From Streptomyces platensis (lineage in GTDB: Bacteria; Actinomycetota; Actinomycetes; Streptomycetales; Streptomycetaceae): a DNA stretch of 64,000 bases. Shown here one piece after another: positions 37,137 to 51,014 of the stretch. A program made the position numbers and the translations under genes. Below the pieces are notes generated by a model. That model searched no databases, was not told the origin of the DNA, and saw nothing but the letters and a program-made list of their open reading frames with translations. Position 1 is the stretch's first letter, and each line of letters opens with the position of its first letter. The stretch covers positions 1,860,001 through 1,924,000 of the forward strand of contig NZ_CP023691.1 of the NCBI RefSeq assembly GCF_008704855.1. The letters run 5' to 3'.

Positions 37137-37952
37137 TCACCGGCGGGCGGCGCGCGCCTTGCGGTAGAGCAGGGCGCCACCGAGCAGCATCCCGGCACTG
37201 GCCGGAACCGCGTAGCCGATCGAGCCCGCACCGGTGTGCGCGAGGTTCCCGACGGGCTTGGCCGGCGTCACCTGCTGGCTGGGCGCCTGCGGCTTGGCCG
37301 GCTTGTGCGGGGTCTGCTGGCTCGGGTTACCCGGCTGGTGAGGCTTGCCGGGGTGGTGCGGCGTGCTCGGGTGGTGCGGCTTACCCGGCTCGTGCGGCTT
37401 ACCCGGCTCATGCGGCTTGCCCGGCTCATGCGGCTTGCCCGGGTGATGGGGCTTGCCGGGGTGGTGCGGGTTGCTCGGGTGGTGCGGCCTGCCCGGGGTC
37501 GCCGAGGACCCGTTGGCGCAGTGGTTGCCGAAGGTGGGGTTCAGGAGCCCGCCTCCCGAGACATTGTTGCCGCAGGCGTTGACCGGTACGTCGACCGGAG
37601 CCTGGACATTGTTGCCCGACACGACACCCGGCGAGTTCGCGGTGGTACCGGCGGCGCCGGCCCCCGTGTGCCCGCCCTGATGGTGATTCCCACCGTGGTG
37701 CCTGCCACCGACGTCGTTGGCGCAGCGGTTGCCGAACGCGGGGTTCAGCAGCCCGACCACATTGACGGTGTTACCGCAGGCGTTCACCGGCACATGCACC
37801 GGTACCTGAACGTTGTTGCCGGATCCCACGCCCGGCGAATTCGCCGCCCCTCCGGCGGCTCCCGCGTCGGCCTGTGCGTAGCCGGCGGCCATGGCGAGTA
37901 CGCCACTGGCGGCGGCCGCGGTGATCAGGCCCTTTCGTGCGACCTGTCTCAT
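37137..37952 (-). CDS. chpC: Long chaplin, sortase-anchored
   Basis: 271-residue cell-wall-anchored chaplin that helps coat aerial hyphae with the hydrophobic amyloid layer. It has a signal peptide (1 to about 28, ending AQA), then two chaplin domains (about 33-78 and 103-147). Each carries the NSPGVxSGNNVQ start and a Cys pair (ACGN ... F GN xC). A His/Pro/Gly/Lys stalk of tandem HxPGKP units runs from about 152 to 205. The sortase signal LAHTG is at 237-241, followed by a membrane helix and a basic tail. The LAxTG form is that used by class E sortases of Streptomyces. Pairing with a short chaplin just upstream matches chpC-chpH. Confidence 0.93.
   Translation of the reverse strand: MRQVARKGLITAAAASGVLAMAAGYAQADAGAAGGAANSPGVGSGNNVQVPVHVPVNACGNTVNVVGLLNPAFGNRCANDVGGRHHGGNHHQGGHTGAGAAGTTANSPGVVSGNNVQAPVDVPVNACGNNVSGGGLLNPTFGNHCANGSSATPGRPHHPSNPHHPGKPHHPGKPHEPGKPHEPGKPHEPGKPHHPSTPHHPGKPHQPGNPSQQTPHKPAKPQAPSQQVTPAKPVGNLAHTGAGSIGYAVPASAGMLLGGALLYRKARAARR
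37330..37498 (-). repeat. Tandem 18-bp repeats encoding the chaplin stalk
   Basis: About eight or nine in-frame units of the form GGCAAGCCGCATGAGCCG, encoding GKPHEP/GKPHHP. Units with E-P are nearly identical in DNA and lie side by side, so copy number could change by slippage. Confidence 0.8.
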
Positions 37953-41329: not shown

Positions 41330-41501
41330 TCCTGAGACCTGGGTGCGGGACGCCGCTTATGCTGACCGCTCTGACGGGGTTCACGGACGGCGGCGGGGGC
41401 GGCGGTGCGCGTACGGATCAAGGGCGGGCGGGGCTCGGAGGCCGGGGGCTGCGGGGGGCGCGCGGCACCGGTGGACCGGCCCGGGCGGCGGGAGTAGTGC
41501 G

Positions 41502-43001
41502 GTGGCGTCGGCGCTGTCCGATCCGTCCCGCTCGTGCGCCGTCCTGATCGGCACCCATGCGTACACGGAGCTGGATGACCTTCCGCCGGTGGCGCGCAAC
41601 GTCAGCCGGCTGCGGGAGCTGTGCTGTGATCCGGCGGTCTGGGGGCTGGCCGACGAGCGGTGCCGGGTGCTGCGGCAGGCGTCGCGGGAGGTGATCCTGA
41701 AGGCGGTGGAGGACGCCACCGTTGAGGCGACCGACACCGTGGTCGTGTATTACGCCGGGCACGGTCTGGTCGATCCGCGTTCGGGCGAACTCCATCTCGC
41801 GCTGCCCTGTTCGCAGGCGGGTCCGTCGTACACGGCGCTGCGTTACGAGGAGCTGCGGTCGGTCCTGCTCCACCCGTCGGGCGGGCGGCCCACCGCCCCG
41901 CGGACCGTGGTGATTCTGGACTGCTGCTGGAGCGGGCTGGCGCTGGACGGCCTGATGCAGGCCCCGGATGTCGCGCCCGCGGTGGCCGTCGAGGGGGCGT
42001 GTGTGCTGACCGCCACGGCCGGGACACGGCAGGCGCTGGCCCCGCCGGGCGAGACGTACACCGCGTTCACCGGGGAGCTGATCCGGATCGTGGAAGACGG
42101 GGTACCGGGGCGGCCCGCTCTGCTGAGCATGGCGGCGCTGTTCGCGGAGCTGACGGCGGCGCTCACCGCGAAGTCCCGGCCGCTGCCCCAGCTGAGCACC
42201 CGCCAGACCGCCGGGGAGATCTGCCTGTTCCGTAACCGAGCCGGGGCGACGGACGCGCGTCCCGTGGTCGAGGCGGCGCCGTCGCGGGTTTTGGTGGGCC
42301 CGACGGCCGGGGGGACCGTCCCGTCGGACGGCGGGATGGCGTCCCCGGCGCGGGTGCGGGTGCCGTTCGGCGAGCCGGAGCCCGGTCTGCCGCAGCTGGT
42401 ACCGGTGGCGGTCACGGAGACGCGGACTGTCGGGCTGGGCCGGTACCCGGTGACCCATGCGCAGTTCGGTGCCTTCCTCCGGGATCCGGCGAACGCGCGC
42501 TGGCACCCGGCGGCCGCGCGGGCGGCGGGCACGGACGTGGACGACAACTACCTGGCGGGCTGGAGCGGTGCGGACTTCCCGGCGGGGCGTGCGGAGCACC
42601 CGGTGGTCGCGGTGAGCTTTCCCGCGGCCCGCGCGTATCTGGCCTGGGCGGGCCGCCGGCTGGGCGTTCCGCTGCGGCTGCCGACCGCGGCGGAGTGGGA
42701 GCTGGCGGCGCGGGCCGGGCGGAGCGGTGAGTGGTGGCGTGCGGAGATCGCGGCGGGCCGGGTGAACTTCCTCGGCAGTCATGCCGCGTTGACCCCGGTC
42801 GGGGAATTCCCACCGAACCCGTACAACATCGGCGATTTGCTCGGTAACGTCTGGGACATCTGCGTGGACGACAGGGGGGCGCCGGTGTTGCGCGGCGGGG
42901 CCTATGACACCCCCGCGGCTCGGCTGCGGGAGGAACTGTCGCCACGGTCACCGGTCGAGTGCCGCGGGAACGTCGGGTTCCGGTGCGCCGGCGACCTGTG
43001 A
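41502..43001 (+). CDS. Caspase-like protease fused to a SUMF1/FGE-like domain
   Basis: 499 residues. The N-terminal peptidase C14 domain (about 10-240) has the caspase dyad, His87 in YYAGHGLVD and Cys142 in ILDCCWSG, preceded by the strand SCAVLIGTHAY. A flexible Pro/Gly linker (about 245-295) leads to a formylglycine-generating-enzyme-fold domain (about 297-499) with YPVTHAQFGAFL, LPTAAEWELAARAG, LGNVWDICVDD and GNVGFRCAGDL. The usual cysteine pair of true FGEs is absent, so this domain probably binds rather than oxidises. Start GTG at 41502 has GGGAG upstream; a possible -10 (TATGCT) is at 41358-41363. It heads a tight three-gene operon. Caspase-FGE fusions are known in bacterial conflict and self-killing systems; activation and target are unknown. 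Confidence 0.85.
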   Translation: MASALSDPSRSCAVLIGTHAYTELDDLPPVARNVSRLRELCCDPAVWGLADERCRVLRQASREVILKAVEDATVEATDTVVVYYAGHGLVDPRSGELHLALPCSQAGPSYTALRYEELRSVLLHPSGGRPTAPRTVVILDCCWSGLALDGLMQAPDVAPAVAVEGACVLTATAGTRQALAPPGETYTAFTGELIRIVEDGVPGRPALLSMAALFAELTAALTAKSRPLPQLSTRQTAGEICLFRNRAGATDARPVVEAAPSRVLVGPTAGGTVPSDGGMASPARVRVPFGEPEPGLPQLVPVAVTETRTVGLGRYPVTHAQFGAFLRDPANARWHPAAARAAGTDVDDNYLAGWSGADFPAGRAEHPVVAVSFPAARAYLAWAGRRLGVPLRLPTAAEWELAARAGRSGEWWRAEIAAGRVNFLGSHAALTPVGEFPPNPYNIGDLLGNVWDICVDDRGAPVLRGGAYDTPAARLREELSPRSPVECRGNVGFRCAGDL

Positions 43002-43017
43002 CGACGAGAGGAGATCC

Positions 43018-45552
43018 ATGCGGGGGGATGCCGTCGACGAGGTGCTGAGCCGGTTGCCGCACACCTGGACAGCCGACGAGGCCGAGCGGATCGCGCAGCG
43101 CTTCCGGGACAGCCGGCCGGCCGTGCCGAAGCGCCTGGTGAGCCGGTTGTGGCAGTACTGGCTCCAGCAGTGCCCGGACGCGCCGCTGTTCGGTGACACC
43201 GAGGACGATCTCGCGCTGGTGCTGCATGCCAGGGCGCTGGGGCTGCGGGTGCCCGCCGGTGATCCCGGGACCGACGACGGGCCGGTCGCCCGGTGGGCCC
43301 GGCGGGCCCGGGAGGCCGCGGAGTGCGGGCCGCTGTTTCCCGCACCGCTCGCGTGGGGGCCGAAGGCCGCGCTCGCGCCGCAGGTGCGGGCCGCGCTCCC
43401 GTCGTCGCTGGTGCGGGCGTGGGTGGCGGGGGACGAACAGGGCCCGGTGGAAGTGCTGGTGGCCGGCGAGGGTCTACCCGAGATCCGCCAGCAGGTGGTG
43501 CAGGCGGCGCTGACCACCTGTCTGCGGGTCAACGGCCTGGGCGACCCGGAGGGCGGCGACTTCGTCGGCGACCACATCGGCGTCGGGCTGATCCGTGTCA
43601 CCGCCGGGCTGTCCGGGGCCCAGGCTTCCCTCGACATCCCGTCGGTGTTCCGCGCCCGGTCGGTGACGGTGGCGGATGCGGTGTCGTCGACGGCCCGGGG
43701 TGCGCTGCGTGACTTCGTCGGCCTGCTGCGGTCGCTGGCCCACGAGACCGGCCTGGTGGAGGTCGCGGACCTCGCGTACGCGGACCTGGTGACGTACACC
43801 CAGGGGTTGCGGGCGCTCGCGGACCGGGCGGCGGGTGAGACGGACCGGGCGTTCCTGCGTGCCCCCCGCGCCGCGGAGGGCGACGGCCTGGTGTCCCTTC
43901 AGCCGTATCTCCGGACGGTCAGGGGGCAGGGGGCGTCCGTGGGGCTGGAGTTCAGCCCGGATCTGTTCACCACGGACGCCTATATGAGCGTCGAGCAGGC
44001 GCATCAGCGGGTGCTGTCGCAGCGGCTGACGATGGACGCCCGGCTGCGCCTGGACCAGCTGGAGACGGAGATCGACCAGCTGACGGCCGATATGCGGGCC
44101 TATGGGCAGGCGAGCGAGGAGGAGCGGCGGACGCTGTGGCCGGCGACGGTGCTGCTGACCGTGCGGTTCGACGAGGCGACCGGGCGGACCATCCGGCTCA
44201 CCGAGCCGGAGGAGGTGCCCACCGAGAAGTACTACGAGGTCAATGTTCCGCATCTGATCGAGATGCGGCAGGGCTGGGCCCGGCGTATGCGGGAGCTGGT
44301 CGAGCAGCTGGAGACGGCGGTGCACCGGCCGCACGCCCCGGCACAGCAGGTGGCCGCGGGGCGGTTCCTCGATGCCGCGTTACGGGGCGTCGTCCCGGAC
44401 GAGAGTCCCGCCACCGAACGGGCCTTTCGCGCCTGGTGCACCGAGGCCGCGCCGATGCTCTGGTTCGAGTGGCGGTGTTCGCTGCGCCGGTACGGCATCG
44501 CACCGGAGGATGTGTTCACCCCGCACACGGTGCTGATCAGCCGCTATCTGCCGCCGACCGCCGAGGACCCGGCGGTGCTCTTCAGCCACCCGTACACGCT
44601 GGTGGACACCACCCGGTCCGCCGTCCTCGCCGATGCCGGGCGCGCCGTGCTGGTGGTGCGGGACGCCACGGACCACGCCGAGCCGGCCCCGGCCGACGCC
44701 ACCGGCCCGTCCGCGCAGCAGCTCTGGGACGACCTCGCCGCGCTGGCCGAACAGCCACAGGTCGAGGAGGAGTTCAGCCGCCGGTTCCTCGAAGCGCTGC
44801 GGGCGCGGCCGGACGGGATCGCCCGGCGGATGATCGAGGCGCTCCAGCCGGCCGGGCCCACCGCCGCCGAGGAGGACCGGATCGAGGCGGCGCTGCGGAC
44901 CGCGGAACGGCACATCTCGCTCGGTGAGGGGATGGACCGGGCGCTGATGGCGATGCGCAACGAGGCGTTCCTCACCGCACGGGAGTGCCTGGACGACATC
45001 CGTACCGAGACGCAGTGGCAGGCCCGGGTCTGGCTGCTGCGGGCGATCGTGGAGTGCCGGGCCGCCCGGCTGGAGTCCCGTGAGATCCCCGGGCTGCTCG
45101 GGCATCAGATGCCCGGACTCCCCGATGTCGCGCTGCGGGCGCTGGACGAAGCGGGCAGCGCGGACGAGGAGTTCACCCGGGACTGGCTGGAGGGCCTGCC
45201 GGAGGCCGGGCTGGACAAGGGCATCCGGCGGCTGTTCCAGGGGCTGCCGCGGGCGCGGGCGAGCTGCAAGGGCGATCCGCTGAACAAGGTGAGCCCCGAG
45301 CGAGAGTACGCGGTGTGGCTCTTCAGGAACGCGGTGGAGTACGCCCGGCTGGCCCGGCAGCTGGACGAGGCCGGTGAGGAGCTCGCCGAGCATCAGGAGG
45401 CCGTCGACGCGGCACTGGCGAAGCTCGGCCGGGCCCTGGAGGAGATTCTGCTGGGGCCGTATGCCGGGGGGTCGCGTGGTGCGGCAGAGGAGCTCTTCGA
45501 GGTCCTCACCGGGCAGGAACCCCCGCGCTACGGCCGGGTGGCGGGGAGGTAG
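43018..45552 (+). CDS. Large uncharacterised protein of the caspase operon
   Basis: 844 residues. I recognise no catalytic domain. Visible features are an alpha/beta N-terminal half and a coiled-coil segment around 340-375 (LRLDQLETEIDQLTADMRAY). A charged mid-region contains YYEVNVPHLIEMRQGWARRM. The helical C-terminal part (about 600-830) has TPR-like or solenoid spacing (AFLTARECLDDIRTETQWQA). There is no Walker motif, signal peptide or membrane helix, so it is cytoplasmic, perhaps a sensor or scaffold for the caspase. The ATG at 43018 follows GAGAGGAG, 16 bases after the caspase gene. Codon 455 (44380-44382) is TTA, the rare bldA-dependent leucine codon, which suggests developmental control. 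Confidence 0.75.
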   Translation: MRGDAVDEVLSRLPHTWTADEAERIAQRFRDSRPAVPKRLVSRLWQYWLQQCPDAPLFGDTEDDLALVLHARALGLRVPAGDPGTDDGPVARWARRAREAAECGPLFPAPLAWGPKAALAPQVRAALPSSLVRAWVAGDEQGPVEVLVAGEGLPEIRQQVVQAALTTCLRVNGLGDPEGGDFVGDHIGVGLIRVTAGLSGAQASLDIPSVFRARSVTVADAVSSTARGALRDFVGLLRSLAHETGLVEVADLAYADLVTYTQGLRALADRAAGETDRAFLRAPRAAEGDGLVSLQPYLRTVRGQGASVGLEFSPDLFTTDAYMSVEQAHQRVLSQRLTMDARLRLDQLETEIDQLTADMRAYGQASEEERRTLWPATVLLTVRFDEATGRTIRLTEPEEVPTEKYYEVNVPHLIEMRQGWARRMRELVEQLETAVHRPHAPAQQVAAGRFLDAALRGVVPDESPATERAFRAWCTEAAPMLWFEWRCSLRRYGIAPEDVFTPHTVLISRYLPPTAEDPAVLFSHPYTLVDTTRSAVLADAGRAVLVVRDATDHAEPAPADATGPSAQQLWDDLAALAEQPQVEEEFSRRFLEALRARPDGIARRMIEALQPAGPTAAEEDRIEAALRTAERHISLGEGMDRALMAMRNEAFLTARECLDDIRTETQWQARVWLLRAIVECRAARLESREIPGLLGHQMPGLPDVALRALDEAGSADEEFTRDWLEGLPEAGLDKGIRRLFQGLPRARASCKGDPLNKVSPEREYAVWLFRNAVEYARLARQLDEAGEELAEHQEAVDAALAKLGRALEEILLGPYAGGSRGAAEELFEVLTGQEPPRYGRVAGR

Positions 45553-45555
45553 GCC

Positions 45556-46926
45556 ATGGACAACGAGCTGTATGTCGTATGGATGGTGCGGAGTTCGGAC
45601 CGTGCCAGGGCGGCGGCCGAGGAGGCGCTGGGCAACTTCGCCGCGCACGATCTGCTGCACCGGATCGGCCGGTTCAGCGAGGCCGAGAGCAAGCTGGCGG
45701 AGCTGGCGGCCCGGGTCCGGGCCGCCTTCACCCCGCCCGAGCTGCCGGCCGTGTTCACCGGGCGGCATCTGCATCTGCTGGTCGGCCCGACCGCGCAGCC
45801 GCTGCTGGCGGGGCTCCTGGGGTGCCCGGAGTCCGAGGTGTTCGCCACCCTCTTCGACGGGCATCAGCTGGCCCAGGCGCTGCGGGAGACGGGGCACCAC
45901 CAGGACGGCATCGATGACGCCGAATTGCTGCTGCTGGCGCTGCTGGCCCGGTTGCCGCGGCTCGCCGCCCGGCACGGTCTGGAGTCCCGTGACTGGGGCG
46001 GCTTCGTCGAGGGCCGGGGCTGGCTGACCCCGTACGCACAGGACCGGCTCACCGAGCTGGCCCGGCGGCGCGGGTGGCCCGCCGAGGCGGCCCCGACCCA
46101 GATCCTGGCGGGGGTGCTCGAAGGCGTCGGCGGGCAGCGGACCGGTGACGAGTCGGCGCAGTTCGACGCGCTGGCGCTGATCGAGCTGCGCCGCCGGATC
46201 GGTCTGCTCACCGAGCAGATGCGCGACGACGCGCTGGAGCACGCCGAGACCGCGCGGCTGCTGGCACCCGATCTCAGCAGCGTCAGCCGGCTGCCCGCCT
46301 GGCTGGAGCTGTACGAGCGCAATGCGGTGGCCGTGGGGCTGCGGCGGCTGTTCACCGGCTCGGTGACGGTAGGCGAACAGCTCCACGGGCTGTACAGCCA
46401 GCCGCCCCCGGAGACCGGCCGGCCGGCGCCCGACGCGAATCTTCAGGTGATCAACGAGGTCCGTTACGGCTTCCTGAAGCGGCGGATGTCGTTCGACATC
46501 GCCTGTGAGGTGGAGGCCGAGGGAAAGGCGCACACCGTGGTCGTGCTGCGCTGCCGCGGGGTGCTGCCGGAGCAGTACCCGGCCATCCGCGACACCGTCC
46601 ATCAGCTGCACGGCGCCGAGCTCGCCGGGCAGGGCGAGAGCGTGGGCGAGCGGCTGCTCAACACCGCGGTGCCGCAACGCCTGGGGCTGCCGGGCCGGTT
46701 GCGGACCGCGCTGCGTGACCACAGCGCCGAGGCGGTCCAGTGCGTGGTGCTGACCGGTGTCCGGCAGCCGATCGCGGTGCCCGCGCCCTGGCGCGATCAT
46801 CTGGGTACGGCGCTGCCGTATGCCGCCCCGTCCGGCGCGGACACCGTGTTTCCCGCGGTGGCGGAGGTGACGCGGGCGTTGCGGGCGAGCGTGCCGGGGC
46901 CGCGGCAGGTCGTCGAGGTGGACTGA
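45556..46926 (+). CDS. Uncharacterised third protein of the caspase operon
   Basis: 456 residues, mostly helical, no recognised domain, no signal or membrane segment. The first 40 residues (MDNELYVVWMVRSSDRARAA) look like a small alpha/beta unit. The centre is helical with several Leu-rich stretches, and the last 130 residues hold beta-rich sequence (AHTVVVLRCRGVLPEQYP, then VQCVVLTGVRQP). ATG at 45556 lies three bases after the previous stop with GGGAGG upstream, so translation is coupled. Constant company with the caspase gene suggests a partner, adaptor or regulator. It might belong to a caspase/TPR-associated (CATRA-like) group, but I cannot confirm that. Confidence 0.75.
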   Translation: MDNELYVVWMVRSSDRARAAAEEALGNFAAHDLLHRIGRFSEAESKLAELAARVRAAFTPPELPAVFTGRHLHLLVGPTAQPLLAGLLGCPESEVFATLFDGHQLAQALRETGHHQDGIDDAELLLLALLARLPRLAARHGLESRDWGGFVEGRGWLTPYAQDRLTELARRRGWPAEAAPTQILAGVLEGVGGQRTGDESAQFDALALIELRRRIGLLTEQMRDDALEHAETARLLAPDLSSVSRLPAWLELYERNAVAVGLRRLFTGSVTVGEQLHGLYSQPPPETGRPAPDANLQVINEVRYGFLKRRMSFDIACEVEAEGKAHTVVVLRCRGVLPEQYPAIRDTVHQLHGAELAGQGESVGERLLNTAVPQRLGLPGRLRTALRDHSAEAVQCVVLTGVRQPIAVPAPWRDHLGTALPYAAPSGADTVFPAVAEVTRALRASVPGPRQVVEVD

Positions 46927-47000: not shown

Positions 47001-47762
47001 GTGCCCACGACGAGCAACCCTGCGATCCGTAATCTGCTGACGCTGGACGGTGCGGTGTCACCGGCCGGTCCGGTCAGGCCGGGCGAGGCGTCCCCGGCGG
47101 CCGTCGCGGACCGTCCGATCACGCTCGACGACATCGTCGTCAAAACCCTGGTGGTGTTCGCCGTCCTGGTGGCGAGCGCCTTCCTCACCGTCTTCCTGGA
47201 CGTCGGGTACCTCGCCCTGCCCGCCCTGTTCGCCGCGCTGGGCCTCGGGATCTTCCTCGCCCTCCGGCCCCGGCCCGGTGCCGCACTTGCCCTGCTGTAC
47301 GCGGCGGTCGAGGGGATCGTGCTCGGTGAGGCGACACAGCTCTTCGACGCGCTGCATCCGGGGATCGGGACCCAGGCCGTCCTCGGCACCGGGTGCGTCT
47401 TCGCCGGCATGCTGGCGGCGTATCGCACACGGAAGGTGCGGATCAGTGCGAAGGTGACGCGCTGGGCGGTCGGGGCGGCGCTCGGGCTGCTGGTGCTGCT
47501 CGTGGCGGAGCTGGTCGCATGGTGGGGGTTCGGCGCGGACCTGGGGCTGCGGGACGGCGGTGTCCTGGCCTTCGGGGTGAGTGTGCTGATGGTCGCCGCC
47601 GCGTCCTTCTTCCTTCTGCTGGACTTCGAGGCCGCCAACCGCCTGCTGCGGTCCGGCGCCTCCCACCGGTGGGCCTGGTATGTCGCGTTCGGGCTGACGA
47701 TGACCCTGGTCTGGCTCTACTTGGAGCTGCTGCGGCTGCTGTCGTACCTCCGGTGGTGGTGA
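47001..47762 (+). CDS. Bax inhibitor-1/YccA family membrane protein
   Basis: 253 residues. A 45-residue cytoplasmic N-terminus (TSNPAIRNLLTLDGAVSP) is followed by seven predicted membrane helices, the BI-1/YccA topology. It also has the conserved late segment FLLLDFEAANRLLRSGASH with the paired acidic and basic residues near the last helices. Bacterial homologues are Ca2+/H+-leak or protease-modulating proteins; in eukaryotes the family restrains cell death. The GTG at 47001 follows GGGAGGG. It begins 74 bases after the caspase operon, with its own possible -10 (TATGCT, 46948-46953). Core Streptomyces genomes carry such genes, so the association may be accidental. Confidence 0.88.
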   Translation: MPTTSNPAIRNLLTLDGAVSPAGPVRPGEASPAAVADRPITLDDIVVKTLVVFAVLVASAFLTVFLDVGYLALPALFAALGLGIFLALRPRPGAALALLYAAVEGIVLGEATQLFDALHPGIGTQAVLGTGCVFAGMLAAYRTRKVRISAKVTRWAVGAALGLLVLLVAELVAWWGFGADLGLRDGGVLAFGVSVLMVAAASFFLLLDFEAANRLLRSGASHRWAWYVAFGLTMTLVWLYLELLRLLSYLRWW

Positions 47763-49068: not shown

Positions 49069-50931
49069 CTAGGGGGCGACGGCGCTCACCGTCCGCCGGG
49101 CGGCTTCGAGGAGTTGTTCGTCGGCGTTCATATCGGCGTCCTCGGAGCCCGCGTGGAGCGGAAGCCGGGTGCGTCGGCCGATGAGGGCGCGCAGGTGCGG
49201 CAGGGCCGGGCGGGCGTGCTCCCCCATGGCCTCCAGGGTGGCCATGGCGGCGGGGCCGAAGAGATCGTCGTCGAGGTACTGCGGGAGGACGGCGAGCAGG
49301 TCGGCGGCGGCCGCCGGGCCCTCGTGGCGCCACAGGGCCCGCGATCCGAAGACCTGCATACCGCCGGGCCGGCTGAGGACGAGGTCGCGCAGCTGACGGG
49401 ACTGGTCCGGGGTCAGGCCGCCGTGGTCGAGCAGCCACTCGAAGAGCCCGGAGCGGTCGGAGACATACCGCCGCAGCCGGGACGGGGCGCACAGTGCGGC
49501 CTCGGCATAGCGGCGCTCGCCGGTGATCCGGGCGAGGGCGAGCTCCCGGTAGCCCGCCCGCTGCCGGGAGGCGCGGCTGAGCCCTTCGAGCAGCGGCACC
49601 GCGGAAGCGGCGGCGGGTCCGATCCGGCCGAGCGCGGTGACCAGGCGCAGTTCGCGCCGGCCGGCCCACTCGGCGCCCTGGGCATCGCGCAGGGCGCACT
49701 CGGCGCGGAGCGCCTCGATGAGGTCGGGGACACCGGCCGCCGCCGCGGGGCCGAGATCGTCGCTCAGCGCGATCGCGGTCGACACCACGTGCGGATCGTC
49801 GGAGCGGAGCAACCTCCTTATGACGGGGACGAGATGCTCCGGGTCGGCGGTCCCGGAGCGCAGCAGACCGCGGACGGCGGCGACCGCACCGGCGGGCGGT
49901 GTCCCCGATGCCAGACGGGTGTGGACGTACGGGGCGGCGCGCGGGTCGTCGACCGTGGCGAGGGCGTAGGTGAGCGTCCAGGCCGTGGCGGAGCGGGTGT
50001 TGCGGGTGGCGGGCAGCAGGGCCGCAAGGTCGTCGGCGGCCAGGCGGGTGGCGGTGCGGGAGGCGCAGAGCGCGTCCACGGCGAGGTCGCGCAGGGCGGC
50101 CGGTGCGGTGCGGACCAGGGCGGTGAGGTGCGGGGTCAGGACGGCGGGGGCCGCCCGCCACGACTGGAGGGCCCGCCGGGCGAGGTGCACCCCGACCCGC
50201 TGGCCGTAGGGGCCCGCGTCGCCGGTCAGCAGCCGGGCGGCGGCGGTGTAGCAGTGCTGCTCCCGGTCCTGCCGGAACAGGGCGTCGCCCCAGCGGTGGC
50301 CGAGGGGCCAACCGCGGTCCGCGTCATGCCCGGACAGTGCGCCGACCTCCGCCACCGTCTGCGCGTCCAGGGCGGGCCACTCCTCCGCCGGCGCCGTTCG
50401 CAGCTCCTCGATACAGGCGAGCAGGCGGATTTCGGGGAGCGGGTCGGTGCGCAGCGGCCCGGGCGGGCACGGGGAGTGGCGTGCGTACAGCAGCAGTGCG
50501 TCGGCCAGGGCGATACGGGTGGCGGGGTCGGGGTGGCTGTCGAGGGCCGTGCGGGCGCGGTCGGTGCCGCCGGCGCGCACGAGGAGGCGGGCGGCGGTCC
50601 GGCGGGCGTCCGGGTCGGGGTCGTGGAGCCGGGCCGCTGCCGCCTCGATCGGGCCCGGCCAGGGCTGGGGACCGCTGTAGGTCAGCTCGGTGAGCAGGGT
50701 GAGCGCGGTGCGGCGCACGGCGGGGCGCCGGTGGTGGGTGAGTCCGGTCAGCTCGTGGGTGACCGGGCCGTCCGGGTCGGCGCGTACCGCGTCGAATACG
50801 GCGGTACGGACGGTGGCGCCGGGGGCGAGGGCGGATCCGTCGAGGACTGCCGCGGTCACGTCGGCCGGGCGGTCGGGGTCGGTGGCTGACGGGGCGGGGA
50901 CCGGGTCGTGGCCCGGGGTCCGCGCGGTCAT
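49069..50931 (-). CDS. HEAT-repeat scaffold protein
   Basis: 620 residues of alpha-solenoid, with HEAT/armadillo-type helices through most of the length. Examples are HHRRPAVRRTALTLLTEL, DPDPDARRTAARLLVRAGG and SDDPHVVSTAIALSDDLGPA. No enzymatic motif, signal peptide or membrane helix was seen. It probably acts as a protein-binding scaffold. The start is uncertain: I use the ATG at 50931, but a GTG 18 codons further up is also open and lies nearer a purine-rich stretch. Proteins of this kind are frequent in Streptomyces accessory regions. No direct link to the caspase operon 2 kb away is shown. Confidence 0.8.
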   Translation of the reverse strand: MTARTPGHDPVPAPSATDPDRPADVTAAVLDGSALAPGATVRTAVFDAVRADPDGPVTHELTGLTHHRRPAVRRTALTLLTELTYSGPQPWPGPIEAAAARLHDPDPDARRTAARLLVRAGGTDRARTALDSHPDPATRIALADALLLYARHSPCPPGPLRTDPLPEIRLLACIEELRTAPAEEWPALDAQTVAEVGALSGHDADRGWPLGHRWGDALFRQDREQHCYTAAARLLTGDAGPYGQRVGVHLARRALQSWRAAPAVLTPHLTALVRTAPAALRDLAVDALCASRTATRLAADDLAALLPATRNTRSATAWTLTYALATVDDPRAAPYVHTRLASGTPPAGAVAAVRGLLRSGTADPEHLVPVIRRLLRSDDPHVVSTAIALSDDLGPAAAAGVPDLIEALRAECALRDAQGAEWAGRRELRLVTALGRIGPAAASAVPLLEGLSRASRQRAGYRELALARITGERRYAEAALCAPSRLRRYVSDRSGLFEWLLDHGGLTPDQSRQLRDLVLSRPGGMQVFGSRALWRHEGPAAAADLLAVLPQYLDDDLFGPAAMATLEAMGEHARPALPHLRALIGRRTRLPLHAGSEDADMNADEQLLEAARRTVSAVAP

Positions 50932-51014
50932 CGGGTGGGGCGGTGGCCGCCCTTCCTGTAGGTCATGGGGAGGATCGTGGCCCACGGGAAGGGGTGCGGC
51001 AACCGGTTTTTTTG

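Follow-up and report, generated by a model that had tools for sequence, protein, structure and literature searches.

A caspase-FGE locus of Streptomyces platensis as a very probable member of the EACC1-caspase conflict systems, with two orphan partner genes and a deleted EACC1 gene

Caspases encoded beside an EACC1 gene were described as a two-gene conflict system, System 4, by Kaur et al. 2020 (PMC7159879). EACC1 is the constant, defining partner of this system and was proposed to sense at the membrane and to switch the caspase on; the activation by EACC1 and the release of an effector are both predictions, and the effector modules of EACC1-caspase systems vary as they do in conflict systems (PMC7159879). 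The literature searched on EACC1-caspase systems held computational prediction papers only, and no functional data were found in it. Fusions of metacaspases to FGE domains were represented by 33 sequences in a 2012 survey (Asplund-Samuelsson et al., PMC3501461), and FGS domains have been proposed as binding modules in conflict systems (PMC8195603, PMC10907252).

The window analysed here, a 64,000-nucleotide stretch of S. platensis DNA, is part of an 8.5-Mb single-contig genome, and Streptomyces inhibens was the nearest named relative at the caspase locus. Three genes follow one another on the forward strand: a caspase-FGE fusion gene (41502–43001; GTG start, 499 aa), the gene of an orphan protein designated P2 (43018–45552; 844 aa), and that of a second orphan protein, P3 (45556–46926; 456 aa). 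The codon-position GC of all three ORFs was of the Streptomyces type, typical for high-GC coding DNA. The gaps between caspase-FGE and P2 and between P2 and P3 measure 16 and 3 nt in the window and in two orthologous loci (L040 and L009); in L095, the third such locus, they are 13 and 3 nt. The preservation of this spacing across four species is beyond chance. Residues 11–223 of the fusion protein matched NF047832, 'caspase, EACC1-associated type' (E 7.3e-63, 211.9 bits against a cut-off of 140 bits), with a further match to PF00656 (E 6.3e-8), and the caspase motifs YYAGHG (His87) and DCCWSG (Cys142) were conserved in 22 same-type caspases of related genomes. Residues 302–496 matched PF03781, FGE-sulfatase (E 2.9e-26), corresponding to the FGE/FGS C-type-lectin fold. 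A sequence-only reading of this DNA had proposed three ORFs in a single operon headed by a caspase-FGE fusion. The ORFs proved to be real and correctly placed, the operon is borne out by the 3-nt P2/P3 gap and the linkage kept in four genomes, and the fusion by its NF047832 and PF03781 matches and the presence of His87 and Cys142.

In all three orthologous loci, an intact EACC1 gene (136, 138, and 191 aa) was located 3–4 nt before the caspase gene. Its product matched PF19953 with E-values of 6.5e-24 (L040) and 1.5e-24 (L009), and the gene ahead of the caspase in L095 was homologous to EACC1. Alignment of the window to the intact EACC1 of L040 and L009 revealed a forward-strand remnant of 30 in-frame codons at 41405–41497, VRVRIKGGRGSEAGGCGGRAAPVDRPGRRE followed by a stop, in which no PF19953 match was found. 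The remnant keeps the EACC1 start (41405) and the same end, its stop lying 4 nt ahead of the caspase start, and a net 106 codons were lost in frame relative to L040, among them the hydrophobic segment, which is weak here as a TM helix (KD maximum 1.59). Upstream of the EACC1 start, a candidate -10 element of the TATGCT type, at approximately 41355–41360 on the forward strand, was kept in all four operon genomes in an alignment of the upstream regions and marks a putative promoter.

Based on NF047832 in the caspase and EACC1 in the orthologous loci, the affiliation with conflict systems suggested earlier could be confirmed and narrowed to the EACC1-caspase type; we classify the locus as System 4 with a probability of about 0.9. 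The earlier view of a three-gene system of unknown kind did not hold, the locus being an EACC1-caspase system with EACC1 deleted in the window; EACC1 had been invisible to the sequence-only reading because of this deletion, and that reading had overlooked both the remnant and a Bax-inhibitor-like gene, also syntenic, that lies 74 nt beyond P3. With only the 30-codon remnant left of EACC1, the window copy of this member system is derived and incomplete.

Alignment of the FGE half to the S. coelicolor FGE revealed that the cysteine-bearing stretch RGGSYLCHDSYCNRY of the latter reads RGGAYDTPAARLRE in the window, with LCHDSYC paired with DTPAARL. The two cysteines of this stretch, which we take to be the FGE active-site pair, were also absent from the FGE domains of the orthologues. 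Formylglycine-generating enzyme activity was therefore rejected; judged from these substitutions, formylglycine production by the window domain is unlikely, and the domain is best viewed as probably a binding rather than a catalytic module. A link of the FGS domain to a diversity-generating element found no support either: a DNA search of the strain's own genome showed no template repeat for 42600–43001, only short matches of 79–82%. The matches listed for 200 family genomes included no caspase-FGE fusion of the EACC1-associated type besides this one. The nearest FGE-fold genes of other Streptomyces were, among the matches listed, unfused to a caspase, and one of them sits in an unrelated ATP-grasp/PALP cluster. 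Separately, a conserved cluster of other family members (L084:4158–14897) combines genes for WD40, GTP cyclohydrolase II, FGE-fold, PLP-dependent, methyltransferase, ATP-grasp, and 2OG-oxygenase proteins and has the appearance of a biosynthetic locus that includes an FGE-fold member; its gene order was similar in L089 and L090 and partly so in L088 and L091.

The absence of a recognised domain in either partner, reported earlier from the translations, was upheld by searches of Pfam, NCBIfam, PADLOC, PHROGs, and PDB, which gave no significant match to P2 or P3, and the set of partners, then described as unfamiliar, was found in no library. Neither protein has a Walker A motif or, by hydropathy, a TM segment. 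P2 shares 79–85% and P3 78–85% identity with their orthologues in three other Streptomyces. AlphaFold models built from two-sequence alignments reached pLDDT values of 34 (P2) and 39 (P3), too low for a fold to be assigned. Several candidate relationships were rejected, including homology between P2 and P3 (hhalign probability 4%), DUF2064 in P2 as a chance match (E 0.02–0.09, below cut-off and missing from two orthologues), a phrog_4283 match (0.69) and short P2 matches across the phylum, both as chance, and a chance P3 match (0.005) in genome G502, in which no P3-like gene was called.

P2 was present in one of 200 family genomes, its own, and rose above noise in its own genome only among 346 phylum genomes; a close-relative scan of an 84,980-species collection added one further species, S. 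inhibens. P3 was recovered in 1/200 and in 2/392 genomes and, after one noise match was dropped, in 3/393 congeners, the samples of 200, 392, and 393 being overlapping. Both partners are very rare. No match to the P2/P3 operon was found on plasmids. The full set occurs in four genomes, namely the window strain, G314, S. inhibens, and G946, where its members invariably co-occur at one locus and in one order: EACC1 or its remnant, caspase-FGE, P2, P3, a Bax-inhibitor-like gene, HAD, and NUDIX, with a pseudouridine synthase gene on the 5' side in all four. The neighbourhood comparison thus revealed P2 and P3 solely alongside caspase-FGE and never alone in the genomes where they were found. Around the matching synthase of 12 other Streptomyces loci, other genes occupied the 3' side, so the whole block is clade-specific. 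Two neighbouring features were also observed in the window. A HEAT-repeat ORF (49069–50985) lies between the NUDIX and ABC-transporter genes and is a variable insert, as it is missing at the same place in L040 and L095 and partially matched in L009. On the reverse strand, 37137–37952 encodes a protein with two chaplin (ChpA-C) domains, which shows 35–77% between relatives and is far less conserved than its neighbours.

The gene 74 nt downstream of P3 encodes a Bax-inhibitor-1-like membrane protein (47001–47762, forward strand; PF12811) and is syntenic in 4/4 operon genomes, a synteny matched by the HAD and NUDIX genes. It is a second copy, the core copy being at G000:C1:3605443, and other Streptomyces carried only a 33–43% similar Bax-inhibitor-1-like copy placed elsewhere. 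A TATGCT-like element before it was conserved in three of the four genomes and could serve as its own candidate promoter element. The Bax-inhibitor family suppresses cell death in eukaryotes (PMC7876416), which makes the neighbour suggestive as a candidate component of the caspase system, its unexceptional synteny and own candidate promoter element notwithstanding.

Taken as a whole, the mechanism that we favour is a regulated-death EACC1-caspase circuit with an FGS module and the lineage-restricted P2 and P3, a tentative proposal to which we give somewhat less than an even chance. In intact copies, EACC1 would sit in the membrane and touch the caspase domain, the FGS domain may bind a ligand or a partner, and P2 and P3 could form a soluble complex that restrains the caspase or supplies it with its substrate. 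A membrane change or an invader signal would alter EACC1 and render the caspase active; the active caspase may then cleave itself and/or P2 or P3, and the released product would halt the infected cell. The earlier suggestion that one of the partners acts as the sensor was not retained, as the published model puts sensing on EACC1 (PMC7159879) and not on P2 or P3. In the window strain, EACC1 was deleted in frame with the catalytic dyad kept, and the caspase domain would be drifting; the function of this copy is probably impaired, or has come under another EACC1 or other input. Whether the window copy is impaired or otherwise driven separates the main rival readings.

Omega (dN/dS) was evaluated with NG86 distances, a counting method, in seven comparisons with bootstrap 95% intervals. 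In this three-taxon test, a small sample picked after the EACC1 deletion had been seen, the caspase domain gave 0.73 on the window branch versus 0.18 on the two EACC1-bearing branches, a ratio of 4.0 (95% 2.0–10.7). The ratios of P2 (1.75; 1.1–2.7) and P3 (2.06; 1.2–3.8) were raised less than that of the caspase domain, that of the FGE domain was 1.05, and those of the pseudouridine synthase (1.63), BaxI (1.04), and HAD (0.48) could not be distinguished from 1. The dS of the caspase domain was not raised on the window branch, which speaks against the domain having been exchanged for a divergent copy. Relative to its orthologues, the window copy showed no surplus of disrupted sites among the caspase positions conserved in the family (22 members). 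Read most simply, these rates suggest that the caspase domain came under looser constraint once EACC1 had been lost and, by extension, that it is the domain on which EACC1 acts. The natural deletion, coupled with drift mainly in the caspase domain, points to the site of action of EACC1.

The EACC1 deletion, the caspase-domain omega, and the raised P2 and P3 ratios would also be expected if the window copy were a decaying, non-functional remnant that lost EACC1 first and whose remaining genes are en route to pseudogenes. This is a serious rival, again short of even odds; however, the three ORFs are open with intact catalytic residues, the FGE domain, P2, and P3 are still under purifying selection (omega 0.30–0.45), and the deletion is in frame with the spacing to the caspase start kept. 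It is less likely, although conceivable, that the window copy functions despite having lost EACC1, through another EACC1 of the genome or through sensing by the FGS domain together with P2 and P3. Elsewhere in the genome, three further caspase loci carry an EACC1 gene, one of these genes adjoining a caspase 54% identical to that of the window, and the catalytic dyad and partner genes are kept; the caspase domain, however, evolves as if under weaker constraint. As an observation on the same genome, it contains four further caspase genes (L041–L044), three of which adjoin an EACC1 gene and whose C-terminal parts vary. The least probable view, that the operon serves as a protease module in development or stress and not as an anti-invader system, would fit the fixed chromosomal locus in four species and the lack of a plasmid match, but such sparseness in the genus (3/393) is unlike a developmental gene and the variation of effector modules among EACC1-caspase systems resembles that of conflict systems (PMC7159879).

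Within the favoured circuit, P2 and P3 are concrete candidate substrates or regulators of a bacterial caspase. In a bolder and improbable extension, P2 and P3 would found two new protein families and convert the two-gene EACC1-caspase switch into a complex of several components, for example an assembly resembling the apoptosome or a pair of substrates. The Bax-inhibitor-like protein would then be an antagonist, and the window strain a natural EACC1-null revealing the EACC1-dependent part.

Comparison with other described caspase systems could further define the position of the locus. CATRA, a caspase-dependent ternary system named in PMC8195603, shares with it partner proteins encoded beside the caspase, but membership was rejected, as no Pfam match was found and P2 and P3 reached an hhalign probability of 0.1% against four CATRA-C proteins. 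The VMAP/iSTAND ternary systems were also rejected: the neighbouring ORFs lacked MoxR AAA+ and vWA domains in the Pfam scan, and P2 and P3 gave no VMAP match. The metacaspase-FGE fusions (PMC3501461) and the caspase/STAND-FGS conflict proteins (PMC8195603) share the caspase and the FGE/FGS fold, whereas P2 and P3 are undescribed in those reports and no diversity-generating element was found here. With System 4, the locus shares the N-terminal EACC1-associated caspase in the 3' gene, a variable C-terminal module, here the FGE fold, and, in the orthologous loci, the 5' EACC1 gene; it differs in the two added, conserved orphan genes and, in the window copy, in the deletion of the 5' EACC1. With caspase-FGE fusions known since 2012 and EACC1-caspase systems described in 2020, the apparent novelty lies in an EACC1-type caspase-FGS protein with two conserved orphan partners, together with a natural loss of EACC1.
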